Of a stretch of DNA of 64,000 nt, positions 1 through 21,635 are shown piece by piece. The stretch covers positions 1-64,000 of the forward strand of contig CANMZB010000005.1 of the NCBI GenBank assembly GCA_947502265.1, read 5' to 3'. The translations under genes and the position numbers were made by a program. This DNA is from an uncultured Sulfitobacter sp. Lineage in GTDB: Bacteria > Pseudomonadota > Alphaproteobacteria > Rhodobacterales > Rhodobacteraceae. The notes beneath the pieces are model-generated. The model ran no database searches. It was not told the origin of the DNA and saw nothing but the letters and a program-made list of their open reading frames with translations. Position 1 is the stretch's first letter; each line of letters begins with the position of its first letter.

Positions 1-1
1 C

Positions 2-42
2 CCTCTCGTGACATCACTGCGTGATGCACTGCCGGGCAGTGG
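2..42 (+). repeat. Hairpin insertion element, copy A (41 nt)
   Basis: It starts CCTCTCG. A 6-bp stem CATCAC-TGC-GTGATG follows, then a second near-perfect hairpin CACTGCC-G-GGCAGTG ending in GTGG. It has the same length and layout as copy C (526-566), with the first stem changed on both arms so pairing is kept. The host transposase resumes at ACAGCACG (DST of VDST). The left boundary lies at the window edge, so the host sequence before it is unseen and the exact insert limits are uncertain. Confidence 0.55.
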
Positions 43-359
43 ACAGCACGGGCATCAAAGCAGAGGGCGAAGGTGAGCGGAATGCCCGCAAGCATGGCGG
101 CTCCAAGCGACGTATCTGGCGCAAGATACACATAGGTATTGACGAGGAAACACTGGAGGTTCGGGCGGTCGAGATCACAAGCAGTAGCGTCGGGGATGCT
201 CCCGTGTTGCCCGATCTCCTGAACCAAATTCCGCCCAACCAAGACATCGGCAGCGTCACTGCAGATGGGGCGTATGATACCCGTAAATGTCACGAGGCTA
301 TTGCCGCTAGAGACGCCTATGCGGTGATCCCTCCGCGTAAGAACGCAAAGCCATGGAAG

Positions 360-411
360 CCCCCTCTCGTGCATGCTCGCATGCGCGTCCTTCGTCCTTG
401 CCGGGCAGTGG
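360..411 (+). repeat. Hairpin insertion element, copy B (about 49-52 nt)
   Basis: It is inserted between the Lys codon of KPWK (357-359) and ACCAGCGAC (TSDGAIARND) in the IS5-like transposase. The core CCTCTCG begins at 363. A strong stem GCATGC-TC-GCATGC (372-385), extendable by flanking pairs, is followed by a short spacer and TTGCCGGGCAGTGG ending at 411. It is longer than copies A and C but shares the same head (CCTCTCG) and tail (TGCCGG.CAG.GG). It shifts the frame by +1. Confidence 0.65.
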
Positions 412-525
412 ACCAGCGACGGAGCGATTGCCCGTAACGATGCGGTCAGCGCCCAACGATATCTGGGTCACACCCTGTGGCGACGATGGAGCGGATATCA
501 CCGCCGAAGCCGCGTCGAAACAAAA

Positions 526-566
526 CCTCTCGGGATCATGCTGCGCATGACCCTGCCGGTCAGCGG
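526..566 (+). repeat. Hairpin insertion element, copy C (41 nt)
   Basis: It is inserted between the VETK codons (514-525) and ATGCACTGC (MHCLKLMGQ) of the IS5-like transposase. It starts CCTCTCG, has stem TCATGC-TGC-GCATGA (536-550), then CTGCCGGTCAGCGG. Aligned base by base with copy A, the head, the TGC loop and the tail match, while both arms of stem 1 differ together. This is a covariation-like pattern. The insertion returns the host reading frame to that used before copy B. Confidence 0.65.
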
Positions 567-759
567 ATGCACTGCCTTAAACTAATGGGCCAATCGCTCA
601 TGGCACGGGACTTCGACAGGCAAGTCGCGGAAATCCAAATCCGCATCGCAGTCCTCAACCGCTACACGGCTCTTGGCATACCTATCACTGAGCCCGTAGG
701 CTAAATCCGTCTGGGGTAAGCGGAAGAGCGTCCTTAACCAGATTTGTGCAACAAAGCCC

Positions 760-1643: not shown

Positions 1644-3252
1644 ATGATTACGTTGCGCGATAGACGGACCGGTGAATTGTTTGATTGTTGGTCAGAGATG
1701 GGTCAGAAGCAGCGCTTGCTGCTAGATCGCTCTTGGGCGGGGTGTTCCGAGACCACCTTCTTGATGATCTTCCAGTTGATGAATTGGGCGGCCATTTTGA
1801 TGATCGCATGGGACGCCCATCGAAGGATTTGCATATCGTCATCGGGGTTCTGCTTTTGCAGCAGTTGCATGACCTGAGCGATACAGTTACGGTCGAAGCC
1901 TTCGCTTTCAACATGGCCTGGCATCACGCTCTGGATGTCCGGACCGAAGCGGATTGTTATTTCTGCGAGAAGACTTTGCGGAATTATCGCCGCCTTTTCA
2001 TCAACGAGGGGCTTGATGAAATACTGTTCCGTCGCGTGACGTACCGCCTTGTGCGGGCTTTTGGGGTAGATACCAGTCGCCAGCGCATGGACTCAACTGC
2101 GATGCGCTCGGCTATGCGCAGCTTGACGCTGCTCGGAACCGTTGTTGAGAGTATTTCAAAATTTGCGCGTGAGCTTGCGCGGTCTAATCCCGCGCTGCAT
2201 GGGTTGATCGATAATGACATCAACCTGCGATATGTAGGTCGGGAAGGTGACGGTTGCTTTTCAAATACGGCACCGAGCGCATCAAGGCGTAGGTTAGATG
2301 AGGCTGGGCGCGATCTGCTGCAGCTTGTGGCGCAGTTCAGAAATACAGCGGCGGCGGAACTGTCAGGATATGCGTTGCTGGATCAAGTCTTGCAAGAGCA
2401 GTTCGAGGTCACGGTTGAAGAAGCTGGCGATACCCTATCGGCGGTCGCCCCTCCGCGCGAACCTGATGATATGCCTTGCGATGGCGTCACCAACCCCGCC
2501 GACCCAGACGCCAATTACAATGCCCACAAAGGTTTGGGCTATATGGTGCAGATAGTCGAAACCTGTGCCGAGGATGATGGTCCTGTGCATGAGACTGCCC
2601 CCGGTCGCCCGATCTGATTACCCATGTGGCGGTTCACAAGATGACGGTGCATGACTGGCATCGATTGCCCGACGCATTGGACGACCTTGCCGACCGTTCA
2701 CTCACGCCGAAAGTCTTGCTGGCCGATTCATATTATGGGTCGGCTGATAGCATGACCTTGACCGATGAGCGCAGTATTGATCTGAAGGCACCAGTTCCTA
2801 CGGCGAGAGGTGGATCTTCAGGGCGTCTTACGCTCGAGGACTTTAATCTGGATGAAGCCGGTTTGGTTCTGCACTGTCCTAACGGAATTGAACCGGTCTC
2901 AGCCTCTGCGGTGCGTGCGAAACTGCTGGCCCGTTTTGATTTGGCCATATGTAGAAAATGCCCAGACAGAGCACTTTGCCCGGTCTAGGCTCATAAGCAT
3001 GACGGGCAGTTCGCGCGCTTTCAATACACGCCGAAGTGAGCGGGAAAACAAAAACGACGGCTCTATGAACGCAGCAAAGAGTTCCACGACATCCACCGAT
3101 GGTGCGCAGGGATAGGAGCGACCATGTCACGGCTGAAATATCAGATGAACCTTGCGCAGTTGCGGGTTCGGGGCATCCCTGCGATGCGATACACGGTCAA
3201 TCTGCGCGCCTTAGGACTGAATATCCGCCGATGTGCAGCAGTTCAGGCGTAA
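1644..3252 (+). pseudogene. IS1182-family transposase, degenerate
   Basis: A nearly full-length transposase is spread over frames. It begins MITLRDRRTGELFD (1644), shifts near 1738 (SWAG|VFRDHLLDDLPVDEL, consistent with loss of one G) and runs to about 2610. It shifts again into LITHVAVHKMTVHD, reaches a TAG at 2986-2988, then reads AHKHDGQFARFQYTPK, another stop, and finally ATMSRLKYQMNLAQLRVRG...LGLNIRRCAA with a TAA at 3250-3252. Recognisable blocks include GRPSKDLHIVIGVLLLQQLHD, DVRTEADCYFCEKTLRNY, RQRMDSTAMRSAMRSL and RKCPDRALCPV. At least two frameshifts and two in-frame stops make it inactive. Confidence 0.85.
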
Positions 3253-20588: not shown

Positions 20589-21635
20589 ATGGGACTATTC
20601 ATCCTCAGACGTCTGGGCGTGATGCTTGTTACGGCATTGTGCCTGACATTCATCGTGTTCTGGCTGACGAACCTTTATCCGAACCTTGAAAAGCTTGCAA
20701 AAACCCAAGGCAACTTCCGCATGAGCGACGAAGCGGTCACTTCCTATCTGGGCAATCGCGGCTATCTTGAACCCCTGCCCGTCAAATTCGCGCAGTGGCT
20801 TGGCGTAGCGCCGGGGTGGGTGACGCAGAAAGAAGATGGCACCGCAACCGGGCGCTGCTTTAGCGCAGACGTCCCTGTGGAAGACAGGCGCAATTTTTGC
20901 GGCGTGTTGCAAGGCGATTGGGGGCAATCGACCGTTTTCAAGGAGGATGTGAGCGTCATCGTCGCCACCCGTCTGGCGTTGACCGGCAAGCTGATGATCT
21001 GGGTACTGATCCTGATGGTGCCGATGGCGCTGCTCATCGGGGTGCTGGCAGGGATGCGCGAGGGGACCAAGCTCGACCGGTCGCTTTCTACTGTCTCGAT
21101 CATGTCGACCGCAACGCCCGAATATGTCTCAGGCGTTATATTTATCGCGGTTTTCACCTCATCGGCCTTTGGGCTGAAGTGGTTCAAAGGCTCTGCCACC
21201 TCGGCCATGGAGAACGCCACCTTCGAGAATTTCTTCCTGCCGGTGCTGACCATCTCGCTTTATGGCATGGGCTATATCGCACGGATGACGCGGGCGTCCA
21301 TGGCCGAGGTGATGACCGCGCAATACATCCGCACCGCGCGGCTCAAAGGTGTCAGTTTTGGCAACATCGTGATGAAACACGCGCTGCGCAATGCGCTGAT
21401 TGCACCCTTTACGGTCATCATGTTGCAGATCCCGTGGCTTTTGAACGGTGTGGTGATCGTCGAAACCCTGTTCAACTACAAAGGCTTTGGCTGGGTTCTG
21501 GTGCAAGCCGCCAGCAACAACGACATCGAGCTTTTGCTGGCGGTGTCTGTTGTCTCGGTCTTTGTCGTGCTTCTGACGCAGCTGATATCGGACGTCGGCT
21601 ATGTTTTCCTCAATCCACGCATTCGCATTTCTTAA
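20589..21635 (+). CDS. Peptide-type ABC transporter permease (DppB/OppB-like)
   Basis: A 348-aa membrane protein. The N-terminal segment (LFILRRLGVMLVTALCLTFIV) is followed by a roughly 100-residue periplasmic insert (about residues 30-130). Several more membrane segments follow. The permease EAA-like loop is ARMTRASMAEVMTAQYIRTA, then RLKGVSFGNIVMKHALRNAL. It is the inner-membrane half of an importer of the oligopeptide/dipeptide/nickel class. The second permease begins 15 bp after its stop. The start is set at ATG 20589. Confidence 0.9.
   Translation: MGLFILRRLGVMLVTALCLTFIVFWLTNLYPNLEKLAKTQGNFRMSDEAVTSYLGNRGYLEPLPVKFAQWLGVAPGWVTQKEDGTATGRCFSADVPVEDRRNFCGVLQGDWGQSTVFKEDVSVIVATRLALTGKLMIWVLILMVPMALLIGVLAGMREGTKLDRSLSTVSIMSTATPEYVSGVIFIAVFTSSAFGLKWFKGSATSAMENATFENFFLPVLTISLYGMGYIARMTRASMAEVMTAQYIRTARLKGVSFGNIVMKHALRNALIAPFTVIMLQIPWLLNGVVIVETLFNYKGFGWVLVQAASNNDIELLLAVSVVSVFVVLLTQLISDVGYVFLNPRIRIS

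Follow-up and report, generated by a model that had tools for sequence, protein, structure and literature searches.

A family of about 41-nt hairpin elements inserted in transposase genes of Rhodobacteraceae

Three hairpin inserts in an IS5-family transposase gene

The stretch analysed here, called the window, comprises 64,000 nucleotides (nt; positions 1 to 64,000, forward strand) of contig CANMZB010000005.1 from an uncultured Sulfitobacter sp. (assembly GCA_947502265.1), a member of the Rhodobacteraceae. At its very beginning lies a transposase gene of the insertion sequence (IS) family IS5, which is interrupted by three copies, A, B and C, of a short hairpin element (Table 1). A pattern describing the element matches three times in the window and not once in 100 shuffles, so that the three related inserts reported in a preliminary description, made from the letters of the DNA alone, do exist. 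Copy A is located 5′ of the codon for the first catalytic Asp and its left flank is off the contig because the window begins at contig position 1 (G000:C5:1; G and L numbers are our labels for genomes and loci), and copy C is located beside the catalytic Glu (VETK/MHC). As had been proposed for copies B and C, removal restores the frame: without the three copies no break occurs between the first catalytic Asp and the stop of the IS5 frame, and the host protein matches DDE_Tnp_1 with an E-value of 9.9e-32. The frame is restored because the insertion is clean and without target duplication. After comparison with empty relatives (L003 and L049 with 80–81% identity for copy B, L003 with 87% for copy C) the ends first given for A and C had to be moved by one base, and copy B was shortened from 52 to 49 nt, since bases 360, 361 and 411 are host sequence. 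In a search of the window's genome copy B matched the family model, a covariance model built from 12 copies, weakly with an E-value of 0.0032.

Table 1. Features of the window, with positions counted from its first base
Feature	Position	Strand	Remarks
Copy A of the hairpin element, 41 nt	1–41	+	model E 2.8e-13; target G at 42
Copy B, long variant, 49 nt, different stem and 3′ extension	362–410	+	target G at 411
Copy C, 41 nt	525–565	+	model E 1.1e-12; target G at 566
Interrupted IS5-family transposase, first catalytic Asp to stop	42–704	+	5′ part off the contig
Second transposase-like gene, 3′ of the IS5 copy	1644–2988	+	split into several frames (by eye)
Cis52_sRNA (Ruegeria cis52)	21212–21390	−	Rfam, E 2.2e-24

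Distribution, insertion sites and stem covariation

A lack of further copies anywhere, named beforehand as an outcome that would speak against a mobile element, was looked for and did not occur: with the family model, whose E-values are rough, the window's genome (G000, 4.55 Mb) gave 43 matches at E ≤ 0.1, and others were found in related genomes. At E ≤ 0.01, 31 of 36 genomes of the same genus (own genome included) and none of 24 genomes of other families were matched. Searching the Rhodobacteraceae at E ≤ 1e-6 we found the element in 123 of 394 genomes, or 122 of 393 genera, and in the class search at E ≤ 1e-5 in 9 of 385 genomes, of which five belong to the family and four lie outside it; both searches used strict filters with few scored candidates per genome, so that copy numbers are lower bounds, and most copy counts cover stretches of up to 60 nt. 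When named genomes were scanned for 20 fixed bases, at least 115 stretches were obtained, and among the 80 matches listed nearly all were from Rhodobacterales, judged by record title. The element family is centred on the Rhodobacteraceae, the family of the window's organism. Outlying matches on an Ignavibacteriales contig (model E 3e-6) and a Deltaproteobacteria contig (model E 0.005) are taken as chance, as is L119 in an Ignavibacteriales FlgI gene, and an Enemella contig with a copy set and spacing identical to L091 reflects either contamination or transfer.

The comparison with insert-free relatives that had been suggested gave a clean empty relative at ≥85% identity for 50 copies, some of which share a site, and defines the ends of the element. 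Removing the 41 nt, or the length of the variant, makes their junction alignments gapless, and neither duplication nor loss of the target site was seen in any of the 50. The clearest cases are gains of 41, 38 and 41 nt in L060 against L059 at 94 to 98% identity (98% at L060:1737). Recent gains are also found in an IS256 element, which has one insert in G023 and, in a G025 relative with 94–97% identity, the same one plus three more, at which the alignment is interrupted. Among the 230 copies with both flanks the 3′ neighbour of the insert is G in 210 and GA in 166, and 130 fit the target Y^GAY (the caret marks the insertion point). Of 110 filled/empty pairs, 25 disagree at the base 5′ of the insert, against 5 to 19% at neighbouring positions, and ten changes are from G to C. 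Among copies in which this base is A, positions 1 and 36 of the insert form the combination A1-T36 in 14, G1-C36 in 3 and C1-G36 in 7; most of these copies are at two IS5 sites and one, L338, lies within a gene of IS3 type from another family. This pattern at positions 1 and 36 could arise from coding selection at the site or from pairing with the target.

The unit runs from CCCTCTCG to CAGTG with the layout CCCTCTCG-[variable stem]-TGCCGGGCAGTG and is 41 nt long in 200 of 268 distinct copies, the remaining ones having 26 to 51 nt. Model positions 1–41 correspond to the insert and position 42 to the target base. The covariation noticed in the stems was confirmed in a first count with 12 copies (97.7% paired against 80.0% when shuffled, double changes in 7 of 12 pairs), in which a second small hairpin, counted instead of the foot helix 1–3/34–36, showed no double changes, and then within the 41-nt class, for which 159 distinct stretches were used. 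For the latter we counted pairs 8–10/27–29, 12–17/21–26 and the foot helix, which was picked after the alignments had been seen. Pairing is kept in 1809 of 1908 cells (94.8%), whereas re-dealing the 3′ letters gave a mean of 76.6% and a highest value of 78.0% in 200 shuffles. Relatedness among the copies is kept by the shuffles, but with 109 different stem sequences in this class descent alone is an unlikely source of the pairing. Two-sided switches are seen at pairs 12–26 (CG 72, GC 32, TA 32), 13–25 (AT 106, CG 32) and 14–24 (TA 107, AT 42), and pair 1–36 also varies on both sides (CG 129, AT 14 and GC 5 of 159), while positions 4–7 opposite 30–33 vary little except for 5 and 32. In L152, L231 and L222 tails such as TGACAG or TTAGAG replace CAGTG after CCGGG, perhaps marking subfamilies. 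Separately, L086 has two element-like hairpins with a different tail, CTGTCGGGACGACGGG, which lie 172 nt apart near positions 1500 and 1672 of the minus strand.

Host genes and the fate of interrupted copies

Transposase genes, from no fewer than nine IS families, make up most of the hosts, with inserts on both strands and in all phases. Using tblastn with representative proteins, which were picked from interrupted frames and checked with Pfam, 198 of 291 copies were placed inside a transposase or integrase gene and 23 within 300 nt of one; these are counts and not enrichment figures, with redundant loci included and the window excluded. A further 22 copies are in or at most 60 nt from IS427-type genes. 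In a Pfam analysis of the 48 leftover copies some were inside IS6 (L046), IS21 IstB (L183) and IS256 (L096) genes and others adjoined IS110, IS66, DUF4096, DDE_3 or phage-integrase genes (L138, L161, L169, L127, L191, L121, L090), the rest being without match or near ordinary genes such as purD (L064) and an FGGY kinase gene (L109). From their Pfam domains we take the families with inserts inside to be IS3, IS5 (with IS427), IS6, IS21, IS30, IS66, IS91, IS256 and IS481; tyrosine integrases and an rve type are hosts as well. The 43 matches of the window's genome form 25 clusters (grouped by hand), 24 of them in or close to transposase sequence and one, the weak match L233, without an assigned host. 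In G018 and G007 copies are also present in repeated units of about 350–400 bp with terminal inverted repeats and therefore the preference may be for mobile DNA generally.

Within IS5 genes, LLI^DSTG holds 23 of 70 inserts, VET^K holds 15 and TA^DGAYD holds 5; these are the three catalytic positions of the transposase. With a mean of 43 YGAY sites per IS5 gene (both strands counted, 12 genes), 23 inserts at one site is far from even use, although shared descent inflates the count. At LLI^DSTG, 10 different stems were found in 15 distinct copies (two rows of another site left out), which argues for repeated hits of one junction.

The placement of the inserts also bears on the idea, raised speculatively in the preliminary description, that the ribosome bypasses them, and on the possibility that they are removed from the RNA; either would leave a functional transposase. 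Short hairpin inserts whose clean removal restores the frame are known from the yeast mitochondrial byps and from T4 gene 60. Apart from their inserts, several IS5 copies are undamaged (two inserts each in L101, L005 and L108, one in L283), and at the site of copy C position 1 frequently holds A, opposite T36, or G, opposite C36, so that removal of positions 2–42 would keep the Lys codon. Downstream of this site the ratio of nonsynonymous to synonymous substitution (dN/dS) is 0.12 among filled and 0.10 among empty copies; we do not take this as support for function because synonymous sites are near saturation, and in our judgement low values are also expected from separate insertions into living lineages. 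Against bypass, 165 distinct placements in eight reference proteins (three of IS3 type) comprise 109 sense and 56 antisense inserts with codon phases 0/1/2 of 87/22/56, and by inspection the fixed tail and variable flanks provide no matched take-off and landing codons. In Phaeobacter inhibens, six plasmid IS5 copies with one identical insert differ by nonsynonymous changes in 23 codons and by only synonymous ones in 5, and three of them have frame-shifting deletions of 14, 13 and 10 nt. This neutral decay with its deletions shows that the interrupted gene is not maintained in P. inhibens, the one lineage that could be followed after insertion. Unlike in byps and gene 60, the inserts thus occupy both strands and all phases, without purifying selection in the tested lineage; on these grounds bypass or splicing was rejected as hardly credible.

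The P. inhibens copies, whose ends match, occupy two contexts at least and probably three, and so were dispersed with the insert inside. Two IS256 copies of G025 with different flanks are 99.2% identical over 1493 bp without gaps and therefore have the same four inserts. In Pseudorhodobacter turbinis, L323 (979–1064) is 97.7% identical to L325 over 86 nt around the insert, against 80–86% for other copies, a conversion-like patch as might be expected of gene conversion.

Possible mode of movement and comparison with known elements

The earlier proposal of a tiny structured mobile element draws support from the empty sites, the dispersal of the copies, their recent gains and the strong covariation of the stem. 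We consider it likely, with a probability of about 0.7, that the inserts are a family of structure-dependent, non-autonomous mobile elements of about 41 nt that kill transposases and ride on the dead copies. The element would be recognised as a folded single strand by an enzyme acting in trans, the fold probably consisting of the foot helix, an internal loop TCTC/TGCC, helix 8–10/27–29 with bulged A11, the apical stem and the 3′ tail CAGTG. Cuts would be made on the 5′ side of the foot and behind the tail. HUH transposases, which in IS200/IS605-type single-strand elements act on hairpin ends, are a model for moving single-stranded hairpins without target duplication, and the enzyme would most likely be of this kind. 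The inactivated host IS could then be moved in trans by intact relatives, which together with gene conversion would spread the insert.

Several observations weigh against this interpretation. DNA folding of six copies was only modestly favourable, with z-scores of −2.2 to +0.2, and the foot helix, to which covariation points, appeared in none of the six lowest-energy structures. Covariation could stem from template switching, which can copy one hairpin arm onto the other, instead of from selection, and dead IS copies could be dispersed by recombination instead of movement in trans. The examined loci yielded neither a mover nor any longer relative sharing the ends of the element; 9 tails and 60 heads lack a partner and look by eye like complete elements with a changed end, or chance. 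The Y1 transposase domain PF01797 occurs in 14 of 40 same-genus genomes without tracking element copy number and had no match in G011, G018 and G019 despite 12–21 element copies. The presence of RVT_1 in the genus, like that of Y1_Tnp, does not match copy number, and a loose comparison by eye revealed no resemblance of IS91 ends to the element.

The modest folding energies would suit a conventional double-strand miniature element with an incidental hairpin, whose arms are matched by template-switch repair of quasi-palindromes. We think this unlikely, as the head CCCTCTCG and the reverse complement CACTGCCC of the tail do not match by inspection, so that the linear terminal inverted repeats of a miniature inverted-repeat transposable element are lacking, as is target duplication in the 50 copies, and as two-sided change extends to pair 1–36. 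Clean insertion without duplication and the excess of sense copies might instead point to an RNA-borne element, a hairpin RNA inserted in transposase transcripts or DNA and then reverse transcribed; the many antisense insertions and the lack of any RVT_1 match in G000 despite its 43 element matches make this very unlikely.

By inspection the consensus is without the R boxes AAC/GTT of integron attC sites. With Rfam 15 at gathering threshold the window matched only Cis52_sRNA, away from the element copies, and L060, L101, L029 and L174 had no match at E ≤ 0.1. In the open-access literature, which the search covered (subscription papers and preprints being outside its scope), we recognised no description of the element. 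The nearest precedent is the repeat unit of pneumococcus (RUP), which has 107 bp, terminal inverted repeats, TA targets and IS630-Spn1 as proposed mover, and is reported from more than six IS families, whose transposase genes it inactivates (PMC2229807). Both are small and non-autonomous and inactivate transposase genes of many IS families, but the hairpin element has 41 nt, neither linear terminal repeats nor duplication, and the target Y^GAY. Repetitive extragenic palindromes (REP) with GTAG or CGTC tags, described as 20–40 bp hairpins, the CGTC class being common in alphaproteobacteria without a dedicated transposase (PMC3733652), are likewise short, in many copies and sometimes within genes. 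Unlike these, the element has no unpaired GTAG or CGTC tag at its foot, its ends being CCCTCTCG and CAGTG, and most assigned copies are in mobile DNA rather than intergenic. Rickettsia palindromic elements are palindromic inserts in alphaproteobacterial protein genes too, but with 105–146 bp and read in frame (PMC2229807), whereas the main length of 41 nt shifts the frame and the host decays in one lineage.

A bolder version of the single-strand reading, which we offer tentatively and regard as rather improbable, is that the unit is a dedicated anti-transposon element, a minimal single-strand hairpin directed at mobile DNA and at the conserved catalytic codons of transposases, which disarms IS families and persists by riding on the copies it has disarmed. 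Position 36 may then act as a guide of one base, directed at the base next to the cut (A0-A1-T36 versus C/T0-C1-G36).

With exact ends at 41 nt the element would probably rank among the smallest mobile DNA units, and it combines a structure kept by compensatory changes with insertion without target duplication and presence in 122 of the 393 genera sampled from a major marine family. It matters as something very small that disables whole families of mobile DNA, and it may account for part of the broken transposases in Roseobacter annotations. It also brings two questions within reach of testing: by what means such a small unit is recognised and moved, and whether parasites of their own keep transposon families down.
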